A DNA stretch of 64,000 nucleotides from Stomoxys calcitrans. Taxonomy: Eukaryota > Arthropoda > Insecta > Diptera > Muscidae. Of the stretch, positions 1,997-56,310 are shown piece by piece. Below the pieces are notes generated by a model. It had not been told where the DNA came from. It saw only the letters and a program-made list of their open reading frames with translations, and made no database searches. Positions within the stretch are counted from its first letter, which is position 1, and each line of letters opens with the position of its first letter. A program made the translations under genes and the position numbers. The stretch covers positions 196,430,598-196,494,597 of the forward strand of contig NC_081552.1 of assembly GCF_963082655.1 (NCBI RefSeq), given 5' to 3'.

Positions 1997-3903
1997 AAAT
2001 GGCTTTGTTTTAACCAGGTAGAATCTTCAGCTGGTGTATTGTGTAGTGGCAAGCGGAAGGAGCTTCAAATTAGACTCATAGTTCTATTGATTTGTATAAC
2101 AGATCTAAAGCTTTGCAGGACGATCTGTAACAAACATTCTTCATTCTATGGTACAGCAGTGCAATTCATATGCTACAAAGTTTGGATTTTGACAATCATG
2201 GTCTTAGAGAGTACGTCGAATCAGCAATTCCCACAACCTAATCATATCATCTTGACAAATGTGACGTTAAATTTTAAATTATCTTAAGAGTTTCCATTTT
2301 ATTTCCCTCCAGACGCCACTGAACTTCGGCAAAAGCATTGCACATCATAAAGTATGATTTGAATTTCTTCGTTTAAACAATTAATTCCATTATCAACATT
2401 CAAGGCTTGAATTGCGAACATTTTAACTCATAATCTTCTTAATGTCCTTTTTGTTGCAGTTGTTCTCGCAAAAGCTTTTGAGTAAACGTGATTTATTTAA
2501 ATGGCAAAAAAATTAAATAAATTTTAATTGTATAAGTAGTAACAGAAGTGTTTTTTGAAAACTCATAACAACACAAAATACAGTTGTATATATAAACCAA
2601 TAAACGTTTGTTAAACATAAAAGAAAACGGGGAAAAATTATCACAAAAAAAAATGAAAATTAAAACGCAACAAAACACATAAAAACAATTTTTAGATAAA
2701 GTTGATTTTTTTTTGTGGTTTAATCAATTCTCTGTGTTTTCTTTTTATTTTTGCCAACAACGTCACATAGACACGCACACACATAAGGCTGCAAACACAA
2801 ATTTATATGGCAACAAAAACGAAAAACCAAAAAGTCGTTAAAAGTGGTGAACGCAACATGGAACGCCTTTAAATGGTATTTAAAAAATTTTTCTAATTTT
2901 TTGTTTGGTTTTCATAAATTGTGTGATTTTTAAATTTGAACATAACTAAAATCGGTTAAATGGTGGTAGTAATTGAGATAAAAGAGAAAAAAATTATTTT
3001 TTTTAAAATAATAATAAAAAAATTAAAGTAACGTAAAGTAACGTAAGGCAACGCAACGCAACGTAACGTAATGTATGAACAAAGAAATAATGAACTTTTT
3101 TGAAAACGTAAACGGTAACGTAAACTAGGAACGAAAACGAAATGTTTAGTTAGAGTTTATACGGTACTGACTGACTGACTGACTGAATGACTGACTAACT
3201 GCTCTCTCGTTGTTGTCGTCACATTGTTGACATCTTCATCGCCGCTCTGGTCAGAGTATGGAATTTTAACACCGTTACGTGAGCTACACTAACTCTTGCA
3301 ATGTTAAGCTCTCTCTTTTCCACGCGCGAATTCACACACACACACACACACAGGGAAGTTCTCTATTTGATAGCCTTAAGCAAATGACATATAGCGCTTT
3401 GACCACTACAAGGCCGTTCAAGTTATATGCTAAACTCACCAAAAATAGGGAGAGAGAGAGAGAAGAAGATCGAAAGGTAGTGGCAAAAAATGCATGTGTG
3501 TGTGTTTCAAGTTTTTTTTTTTTTTTTTTGGTTTTAAGAAAAATCAAGAAAATGAAAAAGAAGAAATAATTTTGGTATTAATAGATTTTCCGATTTTTTT
3601 TTTTTTTTTTTTTTTTTTGAGAAAAATTTGTTTTCCTTTGAAAACTAAATACAGCATTTACAAGTCTTTTTTGTTTTGGAAAACATAAAACCAAAAAGAA
3701 ATTATGTATTTAAAACAAAAATAATATGAATTTTATTTTCTGTTGCTCTAAAATTCTAAATCATGATGCAAAAAGCCAAGTTTGGTAAGGATATTTGGAA
3801 TTTGGTATGGATTCAGTTGGATAGTTTGGGGAGGTTTGATTTTTGTTGAAGGTATTTGGTGGATACAACATAAAGCTTTAGTGATTAGAATTGAATTACT
3901 TAC
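1997..3903. other. Noncoding, inferred bol intron sequence with microsatellites
   Basis: No supported exon was found here. The region is A/T rich and low copy within the window. It holds an AACGTAA/AACGCAA pentamer-like stretch (about 3029-3073), a CTGA run (about 3166-3199), a CA run (3332-3352) and long T runs near 3514-3530 and 3594-3620. The bol exon to its right ends with GTAAGT on the minus strand, so this should be intron. The next DAZ-family coding segment was searched for by eye and not found between 1 and 3900. Confidence 0.6.
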
Positions 3904-4057
3904 ATCAGTTTGCAGCCTTTGCGCCTCCTGTTCCGTTTCGAAGGTTACAAAACCATAGCCTTTACTAACACCAGCACGATCCACTATGATTTTCGTTGAT
4001 TTGACATTGCCGTAGGCGGAGAAGACGCGACACAAATCGGATTCCGTTGTGTCGCCA
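3904..4057 (-). CDS. bol: boule coding exon 2 (RRM with RNP1)
   Basis: On the minus strand an acceptor with a T-rich tract ending TTCTGCAG precedes an exon of 154 nt. The exon ends at a GTAAGT donor (3903-3898). One nucleotide completes a Ser codon begun in exon 1, and 51 codons follow. They encode the RRM from GDTTESDL through RNP1 (KGYGFVTF) to EAQRLQTD. This matches the DAZ/Boule RRM closely; 'IIVDRAGVSKGYG' is a family hallmark. Boule is a cytoplasmic RNA-binding translation regulator needed for male meiosis in Drosophila. The last RRM strand and the C-terminus are missing and should lie left of the window. Phase and splice sites agree with the exon at 20036-20148. The family match comes from memory, not from a search. 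Confidence 0.95.
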
Positions 4058-4432
4058 CTGCAGAATTAAACAAAACAAAAAAAAAACACATAAATAAGTA
4101 AGCAAACAGCAATCAATATATAAGTAAGTATGCAATACTTTTTCCATTTGTAAATTAAAGCCCCTGCAGGCTATGCTACATTTTTCTCTTAATTAATTAA
4201 ACCCTTTTTAAAGTACAGAGTGCCATTTGCAAGTGTCCTTAACATACGAGTACATTAATATTATGAATGTTATGTCCATTTCCAATTTAAATCTCTCTTC
4301 CAACCAACATTCATCGTTGTATTCGAACGAGTCTGCTTCACAGCTGTGCAACATTTTCTTAATTAAGTCCATATCAAGGCTTTATTTGCTCTGCTTGTGC
4401 AGCAAATAATATTTAATTGATGTCTTTTGCAT

Positions 4433-5017
4433 TGGACAAATTTGAATTTGTCCCTTTAAATTTAAGAATATAAGGTAGAATAAGTGCCATGAATTTTAAT
4501 TGAATTGTGAATTATTATTATGAATTGTATAGCGTATAAGATATCCCCCTTTTTTGCCATCCGTACTAATCTGGAATAGAGTGTAAGACTATTGTGAATT
4601 GTTAGCTATAAGCCTTTTAGTACTGCAGCTCACTTGCCCTTTTTCAAATGTATACAATTTCACTTCTTTCACAACCGCAGCCAGGTGAGCATCCACATCT
4701 CTTTTCCCCTCTCTGTTTTTCCCAATAAAACCCAACGTTGTACCTCTCATAACCCGACACTTACCGTCTTCTTATTTTTTTTCTTTTCGTTTTGGATACT
4801 TCATTTTCCTATTTAACTCATTATTCCTCTGTGTACGAGGAATAATAAGTTAAAAAAACTCCCGCACTTACAGTCCACTTAACATCCACAGCCACACAGG
4901 GAATTCCTACAGTGACGTCACATCGCCTCTCATCATTTCATCGCTAGCACCACAAATCCCCAAGTGATCTCAATCACCCCCGCTCCGTCTAGCTAGGAAA
5001 CCCCCCAGTCTTGTGCA
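4433..5017 (+). repeat. 5' LTR of the Pao/BEL element
   Basis: The LTR is 585 bp and bounded by TG...CA. Just inside its left end is a perfect palindrome-like inverted repeat (4434-4453; GGACAAATT and its complement around TG). AATAAA lies at 4724-4729. Positions 4813-4853 form a 17-bp stem with one mismatch around a 7-nt loop. The matching 3' LTR is at 12105-12689. Confidence 0.95.
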
Positions 5018-5916
5018 TGGTCCATCGAAGCCGTTCACTGAGAGTACCATCGATTAAGGTAATCCCCGTCTGCATTGTCTAACATACTTAGTTGTGTGTC
5101 ATCGGTTCGCCTTTATGTGAACTTGTTTAACAAGTTGAAGATTTTTATGAATTAATCAGAGATATTTGAAGAAATTTCTGGAGTAACAAAGACGTATGTG
5201 TTTTTTGCGGTTTTACAACATTCATTTTCACATATGGTCAAGAAATCAACTCCAAAAAATTTCAACAAATGTCATTTGACTATCTTGTGAATTACTAAAT
5301 ACCCTAATTGCTCACAGTAAAGTTCAAGAAATTCTCTTTATGCGCTCCTCCTCTACAGTAGAGGTTGTTCCTTTTTAATTAGAGTGCGATTCGAGTAGAG
5401 GTTTATCTCTCTATTGAACTACATTTCATGAATTTGGTACAATTCCTCTGACTTGAATTTGCGGACACCACTTGTCCTTACTATTATGCCCATCTCAAGA
5501 ATTTCAGTCCCTCACCTTTAGTAGTATGAATTATTTGGGTTAACTCTAAGATCTTGCCTTTGGTACTCTCGCTTTAAGTCTAAGACTACTCTTTAGACGC
5601 CCGCTAAGATTCTGATTTTTAATCTATATTTGGCATTTAATGCGGGAACCGCTTCTTTAATTATTCAGAATCTTATCACCTCTTACCGGCGGAACAATTT
5701 GGTTATTCATCGGAGCTTTACGCTTGCACTCAATTCAATCGCAAATCAAAATTGTCTCGATCTCACTGGGTTTCCAAAGGCAAACAGATTTTCTTACGAC
5801 ATTCTACCAAATAATTCTTCTGCATTACTTTCTCAGACAGGAGTTGAAAGCTCTTTCCACTTCGCTTACCTACTCTATTTCTCATTGTTCACTTTATTTT
5901 ACGGATTCAGTACAAA
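5018..5916 (+). promoter_or_regulatory. Pao/BEL leader with putative primer-binding site and candidate splice donor
   Basis: The sequence directly after the LTR begins TGG, as a tRNA-primed binding site should; I could not assign the tRNA. An AAG|GTAATC sequence at 5056-5064 is a plausible splice donor that could join the leader to the acceptor at 11429 before ORF2. No convincing protein is encoded in these roughly 900 bp; the short open frames overlapping the gag start look accidental. The gag start is taken as the ATG at 5917. Confidence 0.5.
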
Positions 5917-8900
5917 ATGAGCTTAGAGAACGCGACCGCAGACATGGCTTCCCAGTCTTCAGGATCCAATCCTTTATCAGATCCCGCTTCCGCAATTAAG
6001 AGGTCTTTGAATCATGACAAGTTTCTATTTGACTGCGACCACTTGATCAACTTTTGTACTCAATTTGAACAGAGCGACATTCAGGATCAGACTGATTCTG
6101 TTTTGGAGGTGAAATTGGAAGACCTCGAGAATCGGTGGCAACGACTTCAAGCTACCTATGAAGGTCTCATGCTAGCTCCAAGAAATGTCAACACCAAGGA
6201 CTTTAGGGAGAACGCTAGAATTAATTTCAACGCCAGCTCTGAAGCCTATTACACGGCAAGGTCCCAAATCCTAGATATTCTAAGAATATCAGGCGGAAAT
6301 GCTCGCCAAAACGCGAGGCACAGCCTTATTCCGGCTTACCTTCCCCAGCCTTCGGTTAACCACTCGTCTCAAGATGTAGCTGACAGTTACATCAAGGTCC
6401 CTCCGTGTGATACGGAAATTTTTAAAGGAGGTTACGAAGAATGGCCGTCTTTCCGTGACATGTTCACGGCGGTCTACGTCAACCATCCGAAATTAACAAG
6501 AGCTCAGAAATTGTATCATCTGCGGAACAAGACTAGGGGTGCGGCCGGCGCCATAGTCAAAAGATACACGCTTTGCGATGAGAACTTTGAGCTCGCTTGG
6601 AGTGCTCTAAAGGCTCGCTATGAGAACAAGCGAGTCTTAGTGGACAACCAATTGAAGATTCTCTTCAACATTCCGTCAGCTTCTGTGGAGAACAGTGAGG
6701 CAATTCACAAAATTCAAGCCACCGTGAATGATTGTCTGTGCACTCTCAAGACTCTGGACGTCAATGTAGAAAGCTGGGACCCCATATTGTTATATTTGGT
6801 TTCGACCAAATTGCCAGATGAAACGCTGGCTCTGTGGGAACAATCCCTCAGATCTCATCGCGATCTTCCTACCTGGAACCAGCTCGATGAATTTCTCATC
6901 AACAGGTACGAAATTGTGGAACGGCTCTCGAGCATAAAGGCCACAAAGACCAGAAGTTCGCTCCCGTCTCAAAGCAGTGGTAAGATCCAAACTTATCACT
7001 CGCAAGAAAAGCTAAGCTCTTCTTGCCCCCTTTGCAGTTCCGACCACACAATAAGGAGTTGTGGACAGTTTCGGAAATACACTGCACAACAACGCATAGA
7101 TTTTGCATACAAGCACAAATTGTGCATAAATTGTCTCTCCTCATCTCATCTCAAGACAAATTGCAAGAGTGTAAACACTTGTATTATTTGTCATAAGCCA
7201 CACCACACTCTGCTTCATCTAAGAAGTAAGCCAGAAGAGAAAACTGAAGATCATGTAACCCATTCTGGTCACGAGGATGACAAGGGTCAAATTAAGTCCT
7301 CTGGCATGAATTCAAAAAGCACATCTCACAATGAGACTCCCTCAACTTCAGCCGCAAGGCGATCCTCGCATGTTCAGGCAAATTTTTCGGCCAACAACGA
7401 CATGATTTTGTTACGAACAGCTCTAGTTCGTGTTGAACATCAAGGGGAGTTGTTTACGCTAAGAGCTCTTATTGATCCCGGTTCTCAACGAACCTTTATA
7501 ACACAAAGAATTCAGAGGCGCTTGCAAATTCCCACCTCTAAAGCGCACTTTGAGATTTCTGGAATTGGCGAACAGACTCAAACATCGAATAAAGAATGCC
7601 AACTAGTCATTGTTGCGGAGAAATACGATGTCCGCTTTTCAGTCTCAGCAATAGTATTGCCTAAAATGACAAAATGGCTTCCTTCCGTCTCGTTCGAAAT
7701 CTCAAATCCCTCAGAGTTGGAGGAGCTAGATCTGGCCGATCCAAATTTCAACAAATCCGCTCAAATTGACCTGATTCTAGGCAATGATTCGGAACGATTC
7801 ATAAACATTGAAGGAATCAGAAAAAATATATGTGGCGATACCTCAGCATACAATACAGTTTTTGGCTGGGTATTGAGCGGTCCAATGCAAACGGAAAGAA
7901 TTTTCTCATTCTCCACGAACGTGGTTGAATCCGAAGATGTAAGGATCAGCAAACTTCTGAGGAAATTCTGGGAGCAAGAAGAGGTACCCATGGCTCCCCC
8001 TCTTTGTGAAGAGGATCAGTTTTGCGAAGAGTTTTACTCTAAAACTACCTCCAGATCCCCGGACGGTAAATACGTCGTGAGACTGCCTTTCAAAGCAGAA
8101 TTCTCCGACTCCCTTTCTCTTGGCTCGTCTCGCTTTCTGGCTCTAGCTCAGTATAATCGGATGGAGACAAAGCTCTCTAATGATCCCGAGCTAAAAACCG
8201 AGTACAACTCGGTTTTAAACGAGTACATTTCTCTTGATCATGCTCAGGAGACCTCGTCTCAGGAAATCCACTGCGATGGACGATACAATTCCTTTTATCT
8301 CCCACACCACGCAGTCGTCCGTCCAGAACACAAGTCCACAAAGGTGAGAGTTGTGTTCAACGCATCTCGTAAGAGCAAATCTGGTTATTCGCTTAATGAT
8401 GTGCTCCACACTGGACCTACACTGCAAACCGATTTGACATCTGTGATCCTCAATTGGCGCAGATACCGATATGTGTTCTGTGGCGACATTCAAAAGATGT
8501 ATAGGCAAATATGGCTACATCCGATCGACAGAGCATATCAGCGCATTCTTTTCAGGCCGGATCCAAAGGGACCGGTAAAGGATTTTGAGCTAAAAACGGT
8601 TACCTTTGGTCTGAATTGCGCACCGTTTTTGGCTATTCGCACACTCTTGCAACTTGCATCTGACTCTGAGAACGAATTTCCCAATGTCGCGAAAGCATTA
8701 AGGAAAGAGACATATGTCGATGACATTTTGTCCGGCGGCTTCTCTATAGAGGACACCATTCGAGCGCAAGAGGACTTGATATCAGTCCTTAAGCAGGCGG
8801 GCTTTCCTCTCGTCAAGTTGACTGCGAACGACCCACATTTGCTTGCACATCTCCCACAGGAGAGTCTGTATGACTCTGATTTCCTACGCTTCGATGAGTC

Positions 8901-11280
8901 AAGCACTACTAGGACACTGGGTATCAAGTGGAACGCACTAACTGATTCGTTCAGTTATACCCTCGGCTCTATATCAACAGACCAGCCCATGAGCAAACGC
9001 AGAGTCCTCTCTGCCGTCGCGCAATTATTTGATCCTGCGGGATGGGTGACCCCTGTAGTGATAAGATCAAAGATACTGATGCAGCAACTTTGGCTGGAAG
9101 GACTGGATTGGGATGACGAACTCGGCCCAGAGACCCTGCTGAAGTGGAATGCTCTAGTGACTGACTTGAATCACATAGGAGAAATTTCCATACCCAGATG
9201 GCTACAGTATCATCCCTCTGATACAGTAGAGATTCACGGGTTCTCTGACGCGTCTCAGGCAGCAATGTGCGCATGTGTGTACATTCGGTGTCAAACTTCC
9301 AAATCGGGTGTCTTCTCAAATTTGCTCGTCGCAAAGAGTAAAGTAGCCCCACTGAAGCCTGTATGCCTGCCACGTCTAGAGCTCAACGGAGCCTACCTTC
9401 TCGCAAAGCTTGTCAATTTTGTACTATGCACTGTCGATCTAGACATTAGTGGCATAACTCTTTGGACGGACTCATCCATTGTCCTTGGCTGGTTAACAAA
9501 ACCACCATGGACATGGGAAACATACGTGGCAAATCGAACGTCCAAGATTCATGACTTTCTTCCAGGGGGGACATGGCGACACGTCCCTACTCATGACAAT
9601 CCAGCCGACCTCGGCACAAGAGGTTGTAGGCCGCAGGACCTCACCTGTAACTCATTGTGGTTTCATGGCCCAAATTGGCTGACGAACCCACCGTCAGAAT
9701 GGCCCAACAGGAACCCTTTGGTCTCCCCGGAGATAGGAAAGCGCCTAGATATCCAGGTTATGCACGAGACAGTAGAGGATTCAGACATCTTGCTCAGATT
9801 CTCTTCGTACCCCCGAGCATTGAGGGTGGTCTCCTACGTGTTCAGATTCTATTATAATTGCCTTGCTAAATCTAGAGGTACCACGAGAAACTCCTCTCCA
9901 ATTCTTACCCAGGATGAGGTTATACACACGAAATTCCGCCTAATAATGTTAGCCCAGATGAAATGGTACCCAGATGAATACAAGCAAGTTAGTAGGTCTG
10001 AAGAATTGTCCAACAAAACCTCACTGCAATGTTTGAACCCCTTCCTAGATCGGGACAAGGTCCTACGTGTTAATGGTCGACTCGCAGCTAGTTCTTTACC
10101 CTACAACGAAAGGTTTCCCATCATACTTCCTGGGAACTCTCGGCTTTGCCACCTCTATTTGCTCCATTTGCATGAATTTCTCGCCCACGGTGAGTGCATC
10201 CTAATGTGTCGCATGATTCAGACAGAATTTTACATCTCACGTCTCAAGCCGAGAGTGAAGAACGTCATTCATAAGTGCAAAACTTGCATCATTTTTAGGA
10301 AGAAACCTTGCGTCCAAATAATGGCTCCGCTCCCTCCGGACAGATGCACTATAACACCACCATTTCACGTGACCGGTATAGATTTTGCAGGACCCTTTGA
10401 AATTAGGAGTTCATCCCTGCGCCGATCCCCTCTCTTAAAAGGCTATGTGAGCATCTTCGTGTGCTTCGCCACCAAGGCCGTACATTTGGAGCCATGTTCC
10501 GAGCTTTCCACGGCGGCATTTGAGGCCGCATTTTGTCGATTCGTTGGGAGGCGAGGCCTACCTCGGAAGGTAGTATCTGACAATGGCAGAAATTTCGTAG
10601 GTGCTAGTCGAAAGATGCTGAGGGAATTTAGGAGTTTTATTCAGACTGCGGCAAGCGACATTGCTGAGAGGTACTCCACACAGGGCTTTGAGTGGCAGTT
10701 TATACCCCCTCATGCTCCACATATGGGTGGGCTTTGGGAATCAGCCGTAAAATGTTTCAAACACCATTTCAGGAGAGTGGCTGGCGCTCATTTATTTACA
10801 TTCGAACAATTTGCGACATTACTTGCTCGGATTGAAGGAGTTCTAAACTCTCGCCCTATCTCTGCCGTCTCTGAGGATCCAAATGACCTCACGGCGTTAA
10901 CTCCAGGACACTTTTTAAAAGGCGCTCCGATAATGTCATTTCCAGAGCCCTTAGCTGAAGATATCTCCTTGGTAAACAGGTGGCTGAAATTGAAGGCAAT
11001 CCATCACCAGTTTGCTATTAGATGGAAAGAGGAATATCTGAAAGCACTGCAGAAACGATACAAGTGGAAGACCACATCTCCAGATATAGAAGTTGGTGAT
11101 CTAGTAGTCGTAATGGACGATCTACTACCACCTAGCGACTGGCGACTAGGAAGAGTGACTAAGACTCACAGCGGTTCCGATAAGAGGACTAGAATTGCGG
11201 ATGTAAGAATTGCATCAGGAGTCATTACTCGACCAATTGTTAAATTATGCCACTTACCTTTGCTCAATCAACCCCAATGA
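5917..11280 (+). CDS. Pao/BEL Gag-Pol polyprotein, 1787 aa, single frame
   Basis: The order fits Pao/BEL. A Gag region of the DUF1759 type covers about residues 165-345. Three zinc-knuckle units lie at residues 370-382, 403-416 and 422-434. The aspartic protease has its active Asp at 520 in a Asp-Pro-Gly-Ser context. The reverse transcriptase has Asp857 and YVDD at 933-936. RNase H includes Asp1111. An integrase zinc domain of HHCC type lies around 1417-1457, with an integrase core of Asp1489, Asp1555 and Glu1608. The C-terminal domain (about 1705-1785) resembles DUF5641. No stop or frameshift interrupts it, and Gag and Pol share one frame. Together these activities would package, copy and integrate the element. 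The ATG at 5917 gives the longest sensible frame. All catalytic positions I could place are present, so the copy may be active. Confidence 0.96.
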   Translation: MSLENATADMASQSSGSNPLSDPASAIKRSLNHDKFLFDCDHLINFCTQFEQSDIQDQTDSVLEVKLEDLENRWQRLQATYEGLMLAPRNVNTKDFRENARINFNASSEAYYTARSQILDILRISGGNARQNARHSLIPAYLPQPSVNHSSQDVADSYIKVPPCDTEIFKGGYEEWPSFRDMFTAVYVNHPKLTRAQKLYHLRNKTRGAAGAIVKRYTLCDENFELAWSALKARYENKRVLVDNQLKILFNIPSASVENSEAIHKIQATVNDCLCTLKTLDVNVESWDPILLYLVSTKLPDETLALWEQSLRSHRDLPTWNQLDEFLINRYEIVERLSSIKATKTRSSLPSQSSGKIQTYHSQEKLSSSCPLCSSDHTIRSCGQFRKYTAQQRIDFAYKHKLCINCLSSSHLKTNCKSVNTCIICHKPHHTLLHLRSKPEEKTEDHVTHSGHEDDKGQIKSSGMNSKSTSHNETPSTSAARRSSHVQANFSANNDMILLRTALVRVEHQGELFTLRALIDPGSQRTFITQRIQRRLQIPTSKAHFEISGIGEQTQTSNKECQLVIVAEKYDVRFSVSAIVLPKMTKWLPSVSFEISNPSELEELDLADPNFNKSAQIDLILGNDSERFINIEGIRKNICGDTSAYNTVFGWVLSGPMQTERIFSFSTNVVESEDVRISKLLRKFWEQEEVPMAPPLCEEDQFCEEFYSKTTSRSPDGKYVVRLPFKAEFSDSLSLGSSRFLALAQYNRMETKLSNDPELKTEYNSVLNEYISLDHAQETSSQEIHCDGRYNSFYLPHHAVVRPEHKSTKVRVVFNASRKSKSGYSLNDVLHTGPTLQTDLTSVILNWRRYRYVFCGDIQKMYRQIWLHPIDRAYQRILFRPDPKGPVKDFELKTVTFGLNCAPFLAIRTLLQLASDSENEFPNVAKALRKETYVDDILSGGFSIEDTIRAQEDLISVLKQAGFPLVKLTANDPHLLAHLPQESLYDSDFLRFDESSTTRTLGIKWNALTDSFSYTLGSISTDQPMSKRRVLSAVAQLFDPAGWVTPVVIRSKILMQQLWLEGLDWDDELGPETLLKWNALVTDLNHIGEISIPRWLQYHPSDTVEIHGFSDASQAAMCACVYIRCQTSKSGVFSNLLVAKSKVAPLKPVCLPRLELNGAYLLAKLVNFVLCTVDLDISGITLWTDSSIVLGWLTKPPWTWETYVANRTSKIHDFLPGGTWRHVPTHDNPADLGTRGCRPQDLTCNSLWFHGPNWLTNPPSEWPNRNPLVSPEIGKRLDIQVMHETVEDSDILLRFSSYPRALRVVSYVFRFYYNCLAKSRGTTRNSSPILTQDEVIHTKFRLIMLAQMKWYPDEYKQVSRSEELSNKTSLQCLNPFLDRDKVLRVNGRLAASSLPYNERFPIILPGNSRLCHLYLLHLHEFLAHGECILMCRMIQTEFYISRLKPRVKNVIHKCKTCIIFRKKPCVQIMAPLPPDRCTITPPFHVTGIDFAGPFEIRSSSLRRSPLLKGYVSIFVCFATKAVHLEPCSELSTAAFEAAFCRFVGRRGLPRKVVSDNGRNFVGASRKMLREFRSFIQTAASDIAERYSTQGFEWQFIPPHAPHMGGLWESAVKCFKHHFRRVAGAHLFTFEQFATLLARIEGVLNSRPISAVSEDPNDLTALTPGHFLKGAPIMSFPEPLAEDISLVNRWLKLKAIHHQFAIRWKEEYLKALQKRYKWKTTSPDIEVGDLVVVMDDLLPPSDWRLGRVTKTHSGSDKRTRIADVRIASGVITRPIVKLCHLPLLNQPQ

Positions 11281-11403
11281 AAATCCTAGCCTAATACTAT
11301 ATCGATGCATCATTTTGCATAGGGGCATACTAACCCCTTTTATCACTCATCTCATTGTATCTCGTTCTCATATGATCTGTGTCACTTGTTGCTTGCATTG
11401 CCA

Positions 11404-11429
11404 AATTATTAACCTCTGTTAACTTTCAG
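11404..11429 (+). promoter_or_regulatory. Putative 3' splice site before ORF2
   Basis: A pyrimidine-leaning stretch ends in AACTTTCAG at 11429, only seven bases before the ORF2 ATG. In many LTR elements and retroviruses the third ORF is expressed from a spliced subgenomic RNA, and this placement suggests the same. Use of the site is inferred, not shown. Confidence 0.5.
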
Positions 11430-11436
11430 ATCTACA

Positions 11437-12087
11437 ATGCGTGTCCAAGACGTCTACAAGTGCATGGTGTGCCAAAACCGCCACGCCCTCAGGTACTGCC
11501 CATCTTTTATTTTGATGACTGTCGAAGATAGAAGGACGGCAGTTAGACAACACAAGTATTGTCGAAATTGCCTTGCCAAAAGCCACACCGTGGAAGATTG
11601 CCAGTCGACGGAGACGTGTAGGAAATGTGGGTTCCAGCACCACACCATGCTGCACCCACGAAAACTAGCACCAAAGCCGAAAAGCTCCAAGGCAGCCACC
11701 AGAACGCCCATGGCACAGCCTCGGCGACAAGAGCCAAAAAAAACCAACAATGGCCAATCCACATCCGCTCAGGCCCAACGAGACCAACCAGCCAAATCAC
11801 GACTAGGCCGACGTCAAAATACAGCTGCCGCCCGCCAACAACAGCCACACCCCAAAAGACACAACGGGCCCCAGAACCACCGAAACAACAAACAGGCAAA
11901 CCAACGCAACACTCAACAAAGAATCAACCGAAAGCCAAAGCGCAAACCCCAGCGAAAACCCACCAAGAAACCACAACACCAACCAACAAACCAACCACCA
12001 ACTCTCCAACCTAATTATTTGATTTTGTCTGAAGCGATCAAGTCGCTGGCAACCGTCTTGTGTGCAACTCCCTCAAACTTTGCGTGA
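11437..12087 (+). CDS. ORF2 of Pao/BEL: second nucleocapsid-like zinc-knuckle protein, basic tail
   Basis: The protein is 216 aa, in the place where env lies in errantiviruses. Residues about 9-71 hold three Cys/His units, CX2CX3HX4C, CX2CX4HX4C and CX2CX3HX4H, separated by spacers of 20 and 5 residues. The Gag-Pol of the same element has the same three units with the same 20 and 5 spacers, although most other residues differ. Residues about 72-190 are very rich in Lys, Arg, Gln, Asn and Pro. A short hydrophobic end follows (LILSEAIKSLATVLC). There is no signal peptide or membrane span, so it is not an envelope protein. Likely role: RNA binding or RNP condensation (inference). It starts 156 nt after the Pol stop and ends 17 nt before the 3' LTR. 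It could also be a captured host zinc-knuckle gene. Confidence 0.85.
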   Translation: MRVQDVYKCMVCQNRHALRYCPSFILMTVEDRRTAVRQHKYCRNCLAKSHTVEDCQSTETCRKCGFQHHTMLHPRKLAPKPKSSKAATRTPMAQPRRQEPKKTNNGQSTSAQAQRDQPAKSRLGRRQNTAAARQQQPHPKRHNGPQNHRNNKQANQRNTQQRINRKPKRKPQRKPTKKPQHQPTNQPPTLQPNYLILSEAIKSLATVLCATPSNFA

Positions 12088-12104
12088 ACGCAAGGCCGGC
12101 GCCA

Positions 12105-12689
12105 TGGACAAATTTGAATTTGTCCCTTTAAATTTAAGAATATAAGGTAGAATAAGTGCCATGAATTTTAATTGAATTGTGAATTATTATTATGAATTGT
12201 ATAGCGTATAAGATATCCCCCTTTTTTGCCATCCGTACTAATCTGGAATAGAGTGTAAGACTATTGTGAATTGTTAGCTATAAGCCTTTTAGTACTGCAG
12301 CTCACTTGCCCTTTTTCAAATGTATACAATTTCACTTCTTTCACAACCGCAGCCAGGTGAGCATCCACATCTCTTTTCCCCTCTCTGTTTTTCCCAATAA
12401 AACCCAACGTTGTACCTCTCATAACCCGACACTTACCGTCTTCTTATTTTTTTTCTTTTCGTTTTGGATACTTCATTTTCCTATTTAACTCATTATTCCT
12501 CTGTGTACGAGGAATAATAAGTTAAAAAAACTCCCGCACTTACAGTCCACTTAACATCCACAGCCACACAGGGAATTCCTACAGTGACGTCACATCGCCT
12601 CTCATCATTTCATCGCTAGCACCACAAATCCCCAAGTGATCTCAATCACCCCCGCTCCGTCTAGCTAGGAAACCCCCCATTCTTGTGCA
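12105..12689 (+). repeat. 3' LTR of the Pao/BEL element
   Basis: It has the same length as the 5' LTR and differs from it at one visible base near the right end. The polyadenylation signal AATAAA is at 12396-12401. The 17 bases between the ORF2 stop and this LTR contain no clear polypurine tract, which is unusual for an LTR element. Confidence 0.95.
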
Positions 12690-12694
12690 TGCAT

Positions 12695-13250: not shown

Positions 13251-14393
13251 TATGTAAACCCCCTTTCGTCACAATCCGGTGAAAATTGGATAACTTATGC
13301 ACCCAAATTCGCTACTGACATTGAGTGGTATAATAAATATAAGTCACTGTTGAATTTGGATCAAAAATAAAGCATGGAAGCTATATCTAAATATTGTCCG
13401 ATACAAGACAGAGACAAACGTCGGGAGACCTTAAACTACCCACTGTTCCACATTTAAACGAAATCGGGTAATAAATAGAGCTTTTTTGGGATTCAGATCC
13501 TTTATCGGCAGATCGGTCAATATGGCAGCTATATCTTAGTATAGTCCAATCTGAACCATATTTGGGTCCTATGAGGCGTCACACTACTCACTGTTCCAAA
13601 TTTCAGTAAAATCGGATAAAAAATAAAGCTTTTATGGCCTTCAGACCCCTTATCGGGGGATCGGTCTATATGGCAGCTATATCTAAATATGGTCCGATTT
13701 CTCCAGTTCAAGAACTTAACCAGCGTGCTTCAAAAAGACGTATGTGTCAACATCTCAATTTTTTAAGGCTCTAGAGCGATTACAACAGACGGACGGACAG
13801 ACACACGGGCATCGTTGAATTTTTGAATTTTGAATTTTTTTACAACGATTTGACAGTATTTGGCACAGTTTTTGGAAGTCATAACAGAACATCGCATCCA
13901 AAATGTCAGCCAAATCGGACAAAAATTGCGGCTTGTAAGGGCTCAAGAAGTCAAATCGGGAGATCGGTTTACATGAGAGTTATATCAGGTTATAGACTGA
14001 TTTGGGCCGTATTTGGCACAGTGGTTGGAAGTCATAACGGAACTCCACATGCAAAATTTCAGCCTAACCGAATGAAAATTGAGGCTTCCAGGGGCTCAAG
14101 AAGCCAAATCGGGACATAGGTTTATATGGGAGCTGTATCCAAATCTGAACCGATAAGGCCCATTTGCAATCTCCAATGACCTACATCAGTAATAAGTATC
14201 TGTGCAAAATTTCAAGAGGCTAGCTTTATGCGTTGGACCGCTATCGTTATTTCGACAGACAGACATGGCTAGATCAACTCAGAACGTGGAGACTTTCAAG
14301 AATATATATACCTGATGGGGTCTTAGACGAATATTTCGAGGTGTTACAAACGGAATGATTACATTAGTATACCCCTATCCTATGGTGGTGGGT
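13251..14393 (-). mobile_element. DINE-like arrays, two joined pieces
   Basis: The tandem units carry 'GGTCTATATGGCAGC' phrases. Two GAC-rich microsatellites occur at about 13785-13806 and 14255-14270, each the complement of (GTCY)n. The terminal phrase 'CCTATGGTGGTGGG' ends near 14393. The two microsatellites and a change of unit type near 13815 suggest two elements fused or nested, both with minus-strand sense. Confidence 0.6.
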
Positions 14394-15873: not shown

Positions 15874-17335
15874 CAAGTTGTCTACAGTGGAACCTGTCTG
15901 CTTGGAAGGAAAGAATGTTCCATTTACAGAAAGCGCAAAATACCTGGGTGTTTTCCTGAACAGGAAATTGTACTTCAAATCCTACATTTTGCAAAGGGCA
16001 AGGAAGGCAATTTTTGCCCTATATACCTGCAAGAAAGCCATTGGCATAAGTTGGGGGGTTTAGACCGCGTGTCATGCATTGGGTATATACTGCAGTTGTT
16101 AGACCTATAATGCTATATGGTGTTGTGGTTTAGTGGACGGCGCTTCAAAAGTCCACCTACTGCTCAATACTCAACCAGATCCAAAGGATGGCTTGTTTGT
16201 GCATCACATCTGCGCTGTGGACGACACCATCTGATGCACTGAATTTAATGCTACACCTACTGGCTCTGGACATTGAGGCTAGACAAATTGCTGCGACCAC
16301 TGCCATGAGGTTAAGGGAGCTTTCTCATTGGTCATGTGGCTGCTATTGATACTGTGTTATCTTTGATACAATATCCGATGTTCCAGGCAGTGTGGATTAC
16401 ACCTTAACTGAGCCGCTTTCTGATAAAAAGTACTGTACCACTATTCCTGATAGAACCGATTGGAACTACGATAACCCTGGTAACAGAAGTTACATAGACT
16501 TATATACGGATGGATCCAAACTAAACGACCAGGAGGGTTTTGGGGTGTACTCTAAGATTTAGAACTGGACACATCAAAAAAGTCACCCGACCACTGCAGT
16601 GTGTATCAAGCGGAGATCCTTGCATTTAAGGAAGTGGTGGAATGGCTAAGATATAATGTGCTAACGACGATTAGCATAAATATCTTCTCAGACAGCCAGG
16701 CATCCATTACATCCCTGGAGCACGTATTTCTGAACACAAAAACCACACTCGACTATCGCAGATCTTTCAACGAGATGGCTGAACAGTTTAAAATTCATCT
16801 GTCCTGGGTGAGGGGCCACAGAGATATCCCAGGGAATTGTAAAGCGGACGAGCTTGAGAGAATAGGAACTCCCCTTCACATTCCAGGGATAATGAAATGT
16901 GTGTGTATGCCTCCAGCGACATGTAAGCTAAGTTTTCAGGTCCAGGCCCGAGGGACATCGAATGATAGATGGTCACAAAGAGTGGGATGTGAGCATTCCA
17001 AAACTATGTGGCCTAATCTAGATTTGAAGAAGTCCACCGCTTTGTTATCATTGGCTAGACCGACGTCTCAGTCACTGTGTCCGTCATGACAGGTCACTGT
17101 CTAATCGGAAAACATGCTGACAGACTGAAGGTTGCCAGCAACGACTTTAGCAGAAGCTGTGAGGACATCGAAGAAGAAGAGTCTATAGAACATCCGCTGT
17201 GTGTGTGTACCGCACTGGCAGTCAGAAGGAGTTCCCCTTTAGGTTCTCATTTCTTTGAGAACCAAGTTATTGGGGTTCTTATAGCGAAAACGTCTAATTG
17301 AATCTGATGACAAACTGCCACTAAAACCTAACCTT
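15874..17335 (+). pseudogene. Decayed non-LTR retrotransposon: RT C-terminus and RNase H
   Basis: Translated pieces in different frames show the end of a reverse transcriptase (YLGVFLNRKL, then RPIMLYGVVV). An RNase H domain follows (YTDGSKL, FSDSQAS, WVRGHRDIPGNCKADE), then a cysteine-rich C-terminal region (CRSCEDIEEEE-like). Frameshifts and stops interrupt it, for example near 16060, 16350 and 16560. The RNase H after the RT suggests an R1/LOA/I-group LINE. A second, inverted copy is at 51367-52955. Not functional. Confidence 0.8.
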
Positions 17336-25468: not shown

Positions 25469-27450
25469 TGGATTCAGATTCTTGACTGCTTTCAATATTA
25501 TTGAAATTTTGTTTAAATTTTTATTATCAATTGTAAGTCTTTGATTCATTCACACAGTTTTTTGTCTTTTATGGAAATTCCCAATGTCGTTGGGTTTAAA
25601 GCACGTGTTTGACGCCCTAGCATAGGCTTTAAATTTTTTCTTTCGAAGTTATGCAGTTAAAAATATATATAAAAACACTATAGGACTATCACATGTTCTT
25701 AATTCACATTGTGTGTTACTTTTCTGTGTCTTTGTTGTTTATTTTTTAACTGTTATTCAATTTACGATTTATTTAAAATTGGATTTTAAGTTTTCAATTT
25801 TTTTTTATATATTTTTTTCGGCACTCGTGTTTCGAGAATATTGCGTTGCCTATACTTTATCAAAGTGGTAAAAATATATTTCTAGTGGTTCTTCTATGTT
25901 TGATTCCTTCTTTTTGTTTCGTTTACAAAATCTATTTTATTACTTTTTTCTTATGTTGCCATAAGATACGGTGGATGTTTTTTTCTATATGCAGCACATA
26001 TAGGTTTGTTGTGTTGGTTTTGATTTTTATTTTGTTTTTTAAATTAGGTATTAAGCAGATTTGGTGTGTTTTATAGGCTTTGTCACACGACGACGACGAC
26101 GAGGACGAGACGAGAACACAGCAAATACTATTTTCGAAATTTTTATAGACGCGTTGCAATAGCTGGCAGACGTTCTGCGTATTATCACCGCGGCAATACT
26201 CTTCTTTTATTTTTTTTTTGAGGTATTTAAAATGTTTTTCTTGGTCTCCCTCGACTAAAGAAGAAAGCCAAGCAACAGCAATGACAGACAGCAGTGGCAC
26301 AACTAATTGCGGTCTTCTTAGCACGAAAATGCTGCGTCTGCTGCTGCTTCTACTGTTGGTGGCCTCTCTTGAGGGGAACTTCTGATGATGAAGGCGATGC
26401 TGCTGCTGCTGCTCTGGATGCACGTTAAGTGTTATTTTTGGGATTTCAACACTCAAGCAGGGGCAGCAAAGGAAATATTTTTTCTGTTCTGTTCTGTTCA
26501 GTTTTTTTTTTTTTTTTTTTGTTAGGTGGCCAGCAAAAGCGTCTAATTGTTAGCACGTCTTAGGTTAGTGAATGCTGTTAGTCAGGGATTTAGTATATGG
26601 TATGGACTGATTTTGAGAGAATTTACAAACAAAACAACAACAAAATTTGACTCAAAGAATTTGTCATTTCGAAAAATTATTTCTTTTTTTTTGTCAAATT
26701 TTTCTTGTTGCTTGCCTTGTCTATGCTTCGTTGTTAGTTCTTTGTGTGTTTGTTTTTTGTTTTGAATAGAAAAGAAATTTACGTGTATTATTGGCAAAAG
26801 TGATGAAATTTTGCTGTGCTTCTTCTTTTTCCGGGGGGGCGGGTGGGTGGAGAGCTTCTATGGCTGTACGAGTATTCCTTAATATTGCTTTGCTGGTATT
26901 AAAATTGCTTTAGCGGCATCTAGTTTCGGTGTGCTTGGTGGCTGTTGTTCCTTGTCTTTTTTTTCGTTTCTTTCAAAAGATTTCAATCGCCTTGTGGGAT
27001 ATTTGTCGTGTTTTCGCTGTGCTTTTTTTCGATATAATTTCTGCGATGTTGTCTTTTGAGGTTCCTTTTTTTCTCTCTTGGTTTATTGAAATGCTTTAGC
27101 GTTTAGAGCAGGGGGTTGGGCAAAGGCGACGGCAGGGTTCTGTAAGTACATTAAAATGACAAAAACACTAAGTAAATATACAAAGAAAAACAAAAAAAAA
27201 AAGAATATTAATACACACACACACACACACACATGAAAAAAAACATCTATAGATACCAAAGTATCTACACCAAAAAAAAACTAAAATAAGAATAAAAAGC
27301 TGTAGTAAATATATGACTTAATGACTAATAAAACTATTTTTTGTTGTTTTTAAGCTTGTCCTATTGACCTAGAACTGGCAAATAGGGTGAAGAAGGTGCC
27401 TATTAGCACCCAAATCGTTTCAAATCTCAGTGAAATGCCGATGCGTGGGC
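25469..27450. other. Low-copy A/T-rich sequence; possible upstream bol noncoding exon
   Basis: No coding exon is supported. T runs are common on the plus strand. On the minus strand 26460-26090 is richer in G+C than its surroundings and holds CAG and CGT/CGA trinucleotide repeats. It gives an open frame of up to 174 codons with no recognisable domain. This could be a 5'UTR exon of bol or of another minus-strand transcript. A CA run lies at 27215-27232. Confidence 0.35.
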
Positions 27451-36029: not shown

Positions 36030-38357
36030 GACCTCAGGTACAACAAGTGCTGTAAGGAGACGCCTTACAGGGATAAAGAGTATTCAGAGATGGAGCCAAT
36101 ACATAAAGAGTAACGCTATTAAAAAAGGTTTTAAGCTTAGGTCTACTTACGGAGTCGCAAATAGCAAACAACTCACAGCCGCAGAGAATGCCAGGAACAA
36201 GATAAGTCTTTGCCAAGAGAGACCTAATCCGCAGCGGAGTAATCGACTGAGTGGCCCTGAGAGCACGCAACTTTGAATGTCCCTAATTAACGACAGAGTC
36301 GATATGATTACTCCAAGTCAGAGTGCTATTAATAATCACGCCCAAGTTCTTTGCATGAGGAACGATTCCCAATCTACCGTCGTTAATGAATATACCGGTA
36401 TCATATGAAAACCAAACAGCCTGTTTCTGATAACAACACAGTTAGACTTTACAGGGTTGCGACACAGGCCATTGGCTTTCGCCCACGTGCTGACTCTTGA
36501 CAGATCATGATTAATCAAGCGTATGTTTTCAGCAATCTCATCCCTCGGACTGCCGATATATATCTGTACATTGTCAGCGTACATATGTACCTCAAAGTCG
36601 TTACGGTACAAGGAAAAGAGTAGAGGACCCAGAATCGATCCCTGAGGAACACCTTTCAAAACAAACAGAGGCGACGATACAGAAGACTTATAACTGACAT
36701 ACTGAGAGCGGTGTGACAGGTACAACAAAATGAGACGAACGGGCGTAGAAGAACAAATTGTAAAGATGTCTCATCTTATCACATAACAAGAAATGATCCA
36801 CTGTGTCAAATGCCTTAGAATGGCCAAAAAGAACAAGGAAATTAATCTTGTCGTTCTCAATTGCTCAAGGAATTTCTCAAAGACCTTTGACAAGTAACAA
36901 AGAATCGCAATTGGTCTATATTCCTAGGAATTCTTAGGCAGTGGGATGAGCCTGCCCACGCTAATGGAAAATAACTCGTGGTCAAAATGCTTTTGAAAAC
37001 ATAGGTTACATGAGGAATAATAAGGGGGAGCAAGAGTCTTACAAATCTAGGATCAATGCCATCAGATCCGACAGCGTTAGACTTTACAGTCGCGACACAC
37101 TCAAGGACATTGGCGGGACCAAAACAGCTGAAGCCAAAACCAGAGTCGTCATCGAGAGAGGGGGAGATATTGAAGTCATAGAAATTGGGGTTAACTGGGA
37201 TCTGTGGGACAATAACATCATTAAGCCCATTGATGTCCAACTTTGTTGAACATCTTTCCCAATTCCTATGTCTCGAATAACCTTCCAAGTTCTCTTGGAG
37301 CTTATTGCAGAAGTAAAGCGTCTATAATAGTAGTCTTCAGGCATCCTCAAAAAGTCTCCACCTGCGATGCGACATATTCCTCTCGTGAATAGGCGAACGA
37401 ATATACCGGTAGAACCACGGTTTCGATCTGGAGGACACTTCTCTAGTCTTGAGTGGAACCGTAAGTTCCTGTAGGTCACGAATATTCCTCTGTAGAAAGT
37501 CAATTTGTTCATCGATAGTTTCCATACGAAATATCAGATACCAGTCGATAAGCACAGCACTCGAAAGCAAAAAATCATGGACGAGACTGGCAAAATCTCT
37601 ATATGAATAAGTTTCCCTAGTCCTGGTGAGTACAAATTCATAACATAAAAAGATCAAGTCATGGTTCGAAAAACATGAGGCTGACAGTTGGTCGTATAGG
37701 AGGACTTTAGAAGTGTCACTAACAAAGAACAGATCGGGAAGCGTGCTGGAGGATGCGGAAAAATGCGTGGGAATTGTTGAATTGACAGGCAAAAGCCCCA
37801 AAGAAATACAATTCACACGTGTCCTGTAAAACGTTAGTCCCCACCACAATGTCTGAGTAAGCAAGAGAGAGAGGTTCGAGGACAGAGAAAAAATCTCGCG
37901 TACCCGTACGGTTGTTCGATCTATAAACGCACCCCACTAGGAGCTTGTTATCGGCAACAGACACCTCAACAAAAACATAGTCAATTGGGCCACCTGGGTT
38001 AGACTTTATACATAACTGAGTATTCAGGTAGTTTCTCACATGCATAGCGGGGCCGCCCCCATAACGTAATCTATCAGCTCTGTGTACACAATATTCTGAA
38101 TGATCAATAAAAGCATCAGGTGTTGACTGATTCAACCACGTCTCCAACTCACACACTATATCAATGTCAGAGTTCTCAAAAATCATCTTAAATTCATCAA
38201 GCTTGTTATTCAGGCTTTGGGCATTAATATGACAGATATTTAATCCATTAATATGACAGATATTTAATCGCTGCATATAGACAACATCAGATTGAAGAGG
38301 AAGAGGTCCGAAAAGGAATGGCCCCTGGCCCTTATAGGGCCCTAAACTTTTGCACAT
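36030..38357 (-). pseudogene. Decayed CR1/Jockey-like LINE: endonuclease and RT
   Basis: From 38300 leftwards on minus: AP-endonuclease start (NICHINAQSLNNK, DIDIVCELETWL), a linker, the RT start (VGSDGIDP), VPQGSILGPLLF, and the active site as YADN in place of YADD. A C-terminal RT part follows near 36270-36034. A short tandem copy of 'ATATGACAGATATTTAAT' at 38227-38266 duplicates the NICHIN codons. Frameshifts near 37720, 37340, 36860 and 36330 disrupt it. The changed active site and the shifts show it is dead. Confidence 0.78.
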
Positions 38358-53978: not shown

Positions 53979-56310
53979 ACAAGTAAAAAAGTGTTAAGTT
54001 GAGCCACCACCACAGATTTTGCTAAAAATTTCTACCATATCGGTTCAAAATTTTTATTATAAACCGATTTAGACAATACCTGACACGATTGTAGGAAGTC
54101 GTAACAAAGGAAATCGTAACAGAACACCGCATGCGAAATTTTAGCTCAATCGGATAACAAATGCGGCTTTTAGGGGCTCAAGAAGTTAAATCGGGAGATT
54201 GGTTTATATGACAGCTATATCAGGTTATGAACCGATTCAGACCATACCTGGCACGATTGTCGAAAGTCATAACAGCACACCGCATGCGAAATTTCAGCTC
54301 AATCAGACAATAACTGCGGCTTCTTGATGCCCAAGAAGTCAAATCCGGAGATCGGTTTATATGGAAGCTATATCAGGTTATAAACCAATTTGGACCATAC
54401 TCGACACGATTGTTGAAAGTCGTAACAGAACACTACAATGAAAATTTCATCTCAATCGGACAACAATTGCAGCTTCTAGAGGCTCAAGAAGTCAAATCGG
54501 GAGATCGGTGTATATTGGAGCTATATCAGGTTATGGGCCGATTTGGCACGATTGGAGCTATATCAGGTAATGAGCCGATTTTGCACGATCGTTGGAAGTT
54601 CTAACAGAATACCACATGCAAAATTGCAGCTCAATCGGAGAACAATAGCGGCTTCTAGAGGCTCAAGAAGTCATGTCGGGAGATCGATGTATATGGGAGC
54701 TATATCAGGTTATACACCGATTTCGACCATACTTGGCACGATTGTTGGAAGTCGTACCAGAACACTACAATGAAAATTTCAGCTCAATCGAAGAACAATA
54801 GCGGCTTCTAGGGGCTCAAGAAGTCATGTCGGGAGATCGGTGTATATGGGAGCTGTATCAGGTTATGAACGGATTTCAACCCTACTCGGCACGATTGCTG
54901 GAAGTCGTAACAGAAATTTACAAGCAAAATTTCAGCTCAATCGGAGAACAATAGCGGCTTCTAGGGGCTCAAGAAGTCATGTCGGGAGATCGGTGTATAT
55001 GGGAGTTATATCAGGTTATCTGGAAGCTATATCAGGTTATAGACCGATTTGGACCGTACTTGGCACGATTGTTGGAAGTCCTAGCCCACTTGCAAAATTT
55101 CAGCTTAATCGGACAACAATTGCGGCTTCAAGGGGCTCAAGAAGTCAAATCGGGAGATCGGTTTATATGGGAGTTATATCAGGTTATCTGGAAGCTATAT
55201 CAGGTTATAAACCGATTTGGACCGTACTTGGTACGATTGTTGGAAGTTGTAACGGACAACAATTGCTGGTTCCAGCGGCTCAAGATATCAAATCGGAAGA
55301 TCGGTTTATATGGAAGCTATGTCAGACCGATTCGGACAATTGCAGCTCAATCGGAGAACAATAGCGGCTTCTAAGGGCTCAAGAAATCAAATCGGGAGAC
55401 CGGTTTATATGGGAGCTATATCAGGTTATGAACCGATTTGGACCGTACTTGGCACAATTGTTGGAAGTCGTAACGGAACACTAAATGCAAAATCTCAGCT
55501 CAATCGAACAATAATTGGGAATTCTCCGGGCTCAAAAGGTCAAATCAGGTGATTGGTTAATATGGGAGCTATATCAGTTTATGGATTGTTGGAAGTCGTA
55601 ACAGAACACTACATGCAAAATTTCTGCTCAATCGCACAATAATTGCGGCTTCTAGGGGCTCAAGAAGTCAAATGAGAAGATCGGTTTATATGGAAGCGAT
55701 GTCAGGTTATAGACCGATTCGGTCCATACTTGATACGATTATTGGGAGTCATAACAGAACACTACGTTTCATCCAAATCGGATGAAAATTGTTGCTTGTT
55801 AGGACTCAAGAAGGCAAATCGGGAGATCGTTTTAAAAGAAATTCGAACCGATATGGACCTTTTGCAATCCCCAACGACCTACATCAATAAGAAGCATCTT
55901 TGCAAAATTTCAAGCGGCTTGCTTTACGTGTTTGAACCTTCCACTAAGGAATAGGGGGCGAACTTCTCACATATCAATGAGTGCTGTCCGATTAAATTTT
56001 AAGCTCAATGTTAAGGGGCCTCCTTTTTATAGCCGAGTCCGAACGGACGCTTTGCGGCACCTCTTTGGGGAGAAATTCTTACATGGCAAAGTACCTTAAA
56101 AATGTTGCCAGCATTATTAAGGGGATAACCACCGCTGAACATTTTCCTGATGTTGACGCCGGGGTTTGAACCCAGGCATTCGGCGCCATAGACGGACATG
56201 TTAACCTCTGCGCTATGGTGGCCACAGATCGCAAATCAATATTTCGAGCTGTTACTAAAGGAGTGACTAGTTTAGTATACCCCCTATCTTATGGTGGTGG
56301 CTATAAAAAT
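53979..56310 (-). mobile_element. DINE-like element (type A) with about a dozen units
   Basis: It starts AACAAGTAAAAAAGTGTTAAG with a decayed hairpin. Units of about 150 bp contain GGTTTATATGGGAGC, ATCAGGTTAT and GGCTTCTAGGGGCTC. One unit carries a local duplication of the AGCTATATCAGGTTAT part (55005-55040, again 55170-55210). The end at about 56265-56305 is TTAGTATACCCCC and TATGGTGGTGGC. A SINE interrupts its last part. Confidence 0.7.
55937..56223 (-). mobile_element. tRNA-derived SINE within a DINE-like element
   Basis: Body and head (CTCTGCGCTATGGTGGCC) are present; the tail is short. The B box reads GGTTTGAACCC on plus. It replaced or followed the GAC microsatellite of the host element, which is missing here. 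Confidence 0.75.

Follow-up and report, generated by a model that had tools for sequence, protein, structure and literature searches.

ORF2, a second nucleocapsid-like gene carried by a complete Pao/BEL retrotransposon of Stomoxys calcitrans, belongs as an accessory gene to a group of Pao/BEL elements and represents neither a decayed Env nor a fresh duplicate. The element lies in a 64-kb stretch of DNA (64,000 nucleotides, hereafter the window, meaning the whole stretch that was analysed), and there is very little doubt that ORF2 belongs to a family of its own that arose by an old duplication of the element's own nucleocapsid.

A nucleocapsid-like gene behind Gag-Pol

The element spans 8,257 bp in full. 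Its two 585-bp LTRs (TG...CA; 5' LTR at 4433..5017 and 3' LTR at 12105..12689, both +) differ by 1 mismatch and are flanked by target-site duplications TGCAT at 4428..4432 on the left and 12690..12694 on the right; the insertion is therefore recent. The presumed primer-binding site (PBS; TGG...) is placed at 5018..5035 (+), its position taken from the LTR end and its length assumed to be 18 nt; a match to tRNA-Arg or tRNA-Gly at this site is taken as a Pao/BEL criterion. Gag-Pol, delimited by its open reading frame and Pfam matches, is a single frame of 1787 aa (5917..11280, +) that exceeds the Pfam cut-offs for A17 (1.3e-48), DUF5641 (1.3e-28), DUF1759 (3.9e-28) and RVT_1 (2.1e-8). Matches to protease (residues 506-559) and integrase (1412-1581) agree with the expected order PR-RT-RH-IN, yet remain below the cut-offs, and RNase H has no match in the Pfam listing for this protein. 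With these four domains above cut-off, and with LTR size and total length inside the Belpaoviridae ranges (0.2-1.2 kb for LTRs and 4.2-10 kb in total for Pao/BEL; PMC8742986), the Pao/BEL assignment made in an earlier, sequence-only reading of the window holds.

ORF2, delimited from the list of open reading frames and from its homologues, encodes 216 aa from ATG to TGA (11437..12087, +) between Gag-Pol and the 3' LTR, its stop lying 17 bases short of the LTR; a frame this long occurred in 1 of 1000 dinucleotide shuffles of 11281-12104. Its zinc module (residues 9-73; 11461..11655, +), recognized by Cys/His pattern, AlphaFold2 and alignment, consists of three units (C9 C12 H16 C21; C42 C45 H50 C55; C61 C64 H68/H69 H73) that align gap-free and in identical register with those of the Gag module at 7024..7218 (+) (Gag residues 370-434; C370 C373 H377 C382; C403 C406 H411 C416; C422 C425 H429/H430 H434), the units being separated by 20 and 5 residues in both. 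The Gag module was located by its Cys/His pattern and is also recovered by tblastn of ORF2 on the window (E 1.3e-11). The sequence-only reading was right both about this shared arrangement and about the divergence of most other module residues: identity extends to 26 of the 65 aligned positions, and 12 of these 26 are neither Cys nor His. Against Pfam, ORF2 yields nothing above cut-off, with two weak matches (best E 0.054).

Behind the zinc module comes a variable middle rich in Gln, Asn, Pro, Lys and Arg and predicted to be disordered (11656..12015, +; AlphaFold2 and composition). In the window's ORF2 it comprises 122 residues with a net charge of +29 and 2 acidic residues, in keeping with the very basic region of about 120 residues described earlier. 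The DNA is 81% A+C over 11680-12010, and other frames of this A+C-rich stretch are open as well. The protein ends in a conserved C-terminal helix, ILSEAIKSLATVLC, which the earlier reading had overlooked (residues 194-210, YLILSEAIKSLATVLCA; 12016..12066, +; alignment, AlphaFold2 and pattern). AlphaFold2, run with 55 sequences, gave block-mean pLDDT values above 90 at residues 11-60, of 92-94 at 191-210 and below 50 over most of the middle. Hydropathy indicates no membrane segment in ORF2, the top 19-residue Kyte-Doolittle mean being 1.24, at the C-terminal helix; an Env-like gene, from which the sequence-only reading had also distinguished ORF2 by the lack of such a segment, is disfavoured on this ground.

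Several other features were seen in the window. Just left of the element lies an RRM-domain exon (3748-4065, -; Pfam RRM_1, E 4.3e-12). DAZL is one of the many RRM proteins with solved structures that are related to this exon, which looks like part of the germline gene boule; the element may sit in or beside this boule-like gene. Just to the right, 13425-14139 holds two families of tandem direct repeats, spaced 148 and 153 bp, with two copies per family that are 80% alike. A 162-aa frame at 16601-17089 (+) matches RNase H (E 3.8e-6) and is probably the remnant of another retroelement, and frames of 174-212 aa at 37719-38357 and 37337-37864 (-), 25932-26456 (-) and 54840-55364 (+) have no Pfam match at E 0.01.

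The ORF2 family and the age of the duplication

Protein searches with the window's ORF2, which covered lengths up to ~378 aa, returned 17 proteins at E<=1, and a profile search returned 57, its own protein being counted in both; 55 of the 57 were kept as ORF2, and P0056 (Gag) and P0057 (a fragment) were dropped. The hosts are Stomoxys, Haematobia, Musca domestica, Musca autumnalis, Lucilia sericata, Lucilia cuprina and, in one record, the moth Eumeta, and the best match, when the window's own protein is set aside, comes from Stomoxys calcitrans. The Eumeta record sits on a 2,828-base contig and may represent fly DNA, because tachinid flies parasitise bagworms. Where the homologues are named at all, they are 'uncharacterized', 'hypothetical' or, once, 'CCHC-type domain-containing protein'.

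The earlier reading had left room for ORF2 being confined to this copy or being a single-copy host gene. Neither is the case, since homologues occur in four fly genera and several of them lie behind an integrase tail or beside Gag-Pol. Specifically, the DUF5641 integrase tail of P0020 runs on into ORF2 without a change of frame; a 7,116-base contig is listed both for P0074, a Gag-Pol, and for P0017, an ORF2 protein; and in Lucilia the LOC numbers of P0091 and P0054 directly follow each other, both proteins being on 15,404-base contigs. Equal contig sizes suggest that each of these two pairs shares one contig. Among the 120 Gag-Pol matches listed, out of 282 in all, 11 carry another zinc module downstream of the first and nearer the C-terminus, and 5 (P0061, P0065, P0072, P0095 and P0113) have a looser helix pattern, always in the C-terminal tail. 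In P0113 the helix lies behind the integrase tail and the zinc-module match is absent. Six Gag-Pol models have a second module of the short form, and two of these, P0105 and P0106, do not show the helix pattern. The second module follows RT-A17 or RT sequence, not integrase, in P0061 and P0148, and some junctions in third-party gene models, such as these, may be artefacts. A domesticated host gene is ruled out, ORF2 being LTR-bounded here and linked to Gag-Pol in other records.

The sequence-only reading had proposed a tree of the Gag and ORF2 zinc modules, in which the ORF2 modules now form a group of their own. Of 114 Gag, 46 ORF2 and 5 long-form modules (see below), 91, 44 and 5 were retained after removal of near-copies; beforehand, the lack of a complete module had eliminated 15 ORF2 proteins and 7 Gag-Pols. 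In the resulting tree, built from 72 columns, the 44 ORF2 modules lie on one side of a branch, apart from the 91 Gag modules, with a support of 93/79 that is below the tool's star and with recovery in 92% of 200 bootstrap trees. Forcing the element's Gag clade and ORF2 clade together, these clades having been picked post hoc, was 49 log units worse (p-AU 0.035), and a single group of ORF2 and long form is compatible with the data (p 0.523). In 14 Gag/ORF2 pairs, two of which are based on matching contig sizes with a partial module only, mean identity is 0.381 between a Gag module and its own ORF2 and 0.383 between elements, and Gag distances (zinc module excluded) correlate with ORF2 distances (Mantel r 0.62, permutation p 5e-5, the test minimum). 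The correlation is also found when the short form (9 pairs; r 0.42, p 0.001) and the long form (5 pairs; r 0.71, p 0.025) are taken separately. The separate ORF2 group, the equal identities and the correlated distances therefore indicate that the copy predates the split of the lineages and has travelled with Gag. The duplication from Gag claimed earlier thus stands as regards a homologous module in the same register and fails as regards an origin within the present element.

Beyond the shared register, Y7, M27, Y41, A47 and S49 are common to ORF2 modules (84-100% of 44) and unusual in 83 Gag modules; conservation of the Cys/His columns themselves is partly a product of the motif used for picking modules. 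Median module charge is +11 for ORF2 versus +9 for Gag (+8 versus +9 in the window's own element), and the middle ranges across the family from 27 to 148 residues and from -1 to +29 in net charge (median +10). The helix pattern occurs in 54 of the 55 ORF2 proteins, P0004 stopping before the helix position, and in the 52 full-length motifs the A, I and second A columns are invariant (52 each), while V stands in 50 and C in 51, some of these residues being demanded by the search pattern itself. ORF2-typical residues and a conserved end helix therefore make ORF2 more than a spare nucleocapsid, so that the second nucleocapsid-like protein of the earlier reading is retained for its Gag-homologous zinc module and needs amending for the rest.

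In five more distant Gag-Pol models (P0142, P0148, P0156, P0158 and P0164), the second zinc module runs into a homologue of the Gag-Pol protease, a long form whose tail matches the protease with an hhalign probability of 99.6 (E 1.6e-24; best BLAST E per tail 2e-8 to 1e-14). The catalytic Asp of this second copy is gone in P0156, P0158 and P0164; P0142 has kept DSG, and P0148 has kept the Asp and lost the Gly. The first protease copies, examined in the same five models for comparison, all have the Asp motif (DSGS, DPCS, DSGS, DPGS and DSGS), which is present in 106 of the 113 Gag-Pol stretches examined, or in 68 of 113 under a stricter pattern. The C-terminal ~250 residues of P0156, P0158 and P0164 thus hold an Asp-less protease-like domain after integrase sequence, possibly a pseudo-protease of more distant Pao/BEL elements. 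To judge from these sequences, the simplest history would be that nucleocapsid and protease were copied together and the protease decayed, being replaced by, or reduced to, a helix in the lineage of the window.

Splice sites and candidate functions

ORF2 had been called probably spliced, and a likely acceptor just upstream, with a predicted exon start at 11430, agrees with this. The acceptor-like tract (11405..11429, +), ending TTAACTTTCAG, is the top scorer in the 1.1 kb of 10900-12000, by a simple table-based score, and ends 7 nt ahead of the ORF2 ATG. Translated through, it reads F-R-S-T-M, and 11 of the 42 ORF2 N-termini listed, from 55 proteins, have [YF]R at the matching place when compared by eye; P0035, a twelfth match, was excluded because it is not in a pyrimidine tract of that kind. 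Read-through of a pyrimidine tract and a YAG/A acceptor in the window's phase would give just such [YF]R residues.

Upstream, three donor-like sites score best in 4700-7400. The highest, 6980, is out of frame with ORF2. The second, CAG/GTACGA at 6906..6907 (+), is a candidate that falls in gag codon R330, between the capsid domain and the zinc module, and its phase matches the ORF2 acceptor. The third, AAG/GTAATC at 5059, adjoins a candidate first exon or upstream ORF (5017..5058, +) consisting of an ATG at the LTR/PBS junction (CA/TGG) and 14 codons, MVHRSRSLRVPSIK, within a 21-codon frame open to 5079 (MVHRSRS...). The LTR end CA and the PBS TGGT produce ATG GT, hence Met-Val, as in the MV[HLI][SR] starts of 8 of the 42 listed ORF2 proteins. 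Since the 5059 donor is out of frame with ORF2 here, ORF2 should start at its own ATG in the present element.

We tentatively favour, as possible rather than probable, a role for ORF2 as a spliced RNA-binding regulator of export or splicing like CERV or Rev, because ORF2 is probably splicing-dependent and joins a basic tail and a putative docking helix to its nucleocapsid module, which would suit it for acting back on the unspliced RNA, and because CERV is the nearest tested case found. The zinc module of Gag, probably with the adjoining protease, was copied behind the integrase long ago and has since passed down with the element. In the favoured scheme, ORF2 would be encoded by an RNA in which some exon further upstream is spliced onto the acceptor at 11430; its zinc module and basic tail would bind the element's own full-length RNA, and its C-terminal helix would dock a partner, be it ORF2 itself, Gag or a host factor. 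Acting in trans and post-transcriptionally, the product most likely would help unspliced genomic RNA to evade splicing and to arrive in the cytoplasm, where it can be translated and packaged. CERV of the C. elegans element Cer1 is, according to the accessible part of its description, required for the export of unspliced Cer1 RNA, as shown with mutants (PMC10309623). Like ORF2, it is encoded between pol and the 3' LTR and is not Env-like; it is made from a spliced mRNA, as ORF2 probably is, and neither has obvious homologues beyond its own lineage, as far as that part of the paper goes. CERV differs in having 517 aa, with exons 1-3 in the gag frame of a nematode element, and in showing, in the same accessible text, only a possible C4 zinc finger, the triple Cys/His module being a feature of ORF2 (PMC10309623). 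The likeness considered here is one of position and, probably, of splicing, and the export role established by mutants in CERV would extend to ORF2 by analogy. Several observations count against the export reading: a simple nuclear signal K[KR]x[KR] is found in only 14 of 54 ORF2 middle regions, one middle region has a net charge of -1, the helix pattern is missing from P0105 and P0106, and the window's ORF2 module is not more basic than the Gag module of its element. The helix gives no exact fit to standard export-signal spacing when compared by eye, and a shuffle test of its amphipathic character is not significant (0.059). Nor does RNA export offer an obvious reason for the long form with its protease-like domain.

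Ranked second after the export or splicing regulator, a doubtful though serious contender is an auxiliary nucleocapsid, with ORF2 entering the particle, acting there as an additional RNA chaperone in packaging, tRNA annealing and strand transfer, and having no nuclear role. A module homologous to the nucleocapsid, with Gag's Cys/His register, and a basic tail predicted to be disordered speak for it, but ORF2 lies outside the Gag-Pol chain here and would need a separate route into particles, and the ORF2-typical residues, together with a helix found in just those 5 C-terminal tails among the 120 Gag-Pols listed, suggest a new partner. A functionless relic that hitch-hikes with the element, or whose end is conserved merely as DNA near the polypurine tract, is the least probable reading: the helix codons do lie <=90 bases from the 3' LTR, in addition to the other open frames of the A+C-rich stretch, but the zinc ligands and helix are invariant at the protein level across fly families despite low overall identity, and ORF2 distances follow Gag distances. 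Quite improbable, too, is a silencing suppressor or defence antagonist, a basic zinc protein binding RNA of the piRNA or siRNA pathway. The mostly basic, poorly conserved middle of 27-148 residues would suit it, but conservation is confined to the nucleocapsid module and a single helix, no feature specific to silencing was found, and Pfam offers no match above cut-off.

The donor-like site at 6906 raises the improbable prospect that gag is spliced at R330 so as to join the capsid part to ORF2, giving a Gag with a second zinc module and no Pol, and thereby the Gag excess that a one-frame Gag-Pol element needs. The site ranks second among the donor-like sites of a 2.7-kb stretch, falls after the capsid domain but before the zinc module, and has a phase that fits the acceptor; the one-frame plant element BARE produces a spliced Gag-only RNA, according to the accessible part of PMC3735527. 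Against this, the best-scoring donor, 6980, is out of frame, the eight listed MV[HLI][SR] starts are short and not Gag, and Phe after the conserved Arg in many relatives would weaken or spoil the donor; across 115 distinct Gag-Pol rows, with 6 further Gag-Pols left out, the residue following this Arg is F in 42, Y in 33, L in 19, H in 6, C in 5, I in 3, V in 2 and N in 1, with no pattern in 4. A capsid-ORF2 fusion would exceed the ~378-aa range covered by the ORF2 searches. An account that combines several of these readings, and is unlikely as a whole, would have an ancient, co-inherited second nucleocapsid serve as a 3' exon in fly Pao/BEL elements, to which alternative splicing adds the PBS ATG, its own ATG or the Gag capsid, the product being either a regulator of RNA export or a Gag that lacks Pol and has exchanged its RNA-binding head; originally nucleocapsid plus protease, it would later have carried a dead protease or a docking helix.

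Comparison with known accessory genes

The nucleocapsid module of Pao/BEL Gag and ORF2 share an identical three-unit register and common ancestry, and ORF2 is set apart as a separate gene behind pol with residues of its own, a disordered basic tail and a conserved helix. The Env-like third gene of some Pao/BEL elements occupies the same place, between pol and the 3' LTR (PMC8742986 and the accessible part of PMC3118150); unlike it, ORF2 has no membrane segment by hydropathy. The sORF1 and sORF2 of the Drosophila MDG1 group are, like ORF2, small accessory proteins of Env-less LTR elements, but in the accessible part of their description their reading frames precede gag, or follow pol in some Lepidoptera, sORF1 is nuclear with a predicted helix-turn-helix, sORF2 is a membrane protein, and no splicing was seen (PMC11952523). 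The non-Env ORF3s of bdelloid rotifer LTR elements are extra ORFs downstream of pol with a non-envelope role, typically expressed from spliced messages; these differ, as far as the accessible text shows, in having esterase or exonuclease domains and in not being copied from their own Gag (PMC5408684). Gypsy-type elements have spliced env exons, according to the accessible part of PMC12992720.

No earlier description of a nucleocapsid-derived 3' gene in Pao/BEL was found in the open-licence literature. The ICTV Belpaoviridae profile lists gag, pol and sometimes an env-like gene and names no nucleocapsid-derived extra gene (PMC8742986); de la Chaux and Wagner, in the accessible main text, report no such gene, the words zinc, knuckle and nucleocapsid being absent from it (PMC3118150); and the accessible part of PMC12440569 has nothing on point. 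An accessory 3' gene in an LTR element is already known, and what is new here is that it is made from the element's own nucleocapsid.

The relatives behind the enzymes of several related fly elements suggest an overlooked helper gene, and the ORF2 family explains part of the 'uncharacterized' and 'hypothetical' annotation. A conserved nucleocapsid-derived gene would mean a dedicated RNA-regulating protein, as in complex retroviruses, and ORF2 would also matter for the way in which elements with a one-frame Gag-Pol keep splicing, the supply of Gag and the export of their genomes in balance.
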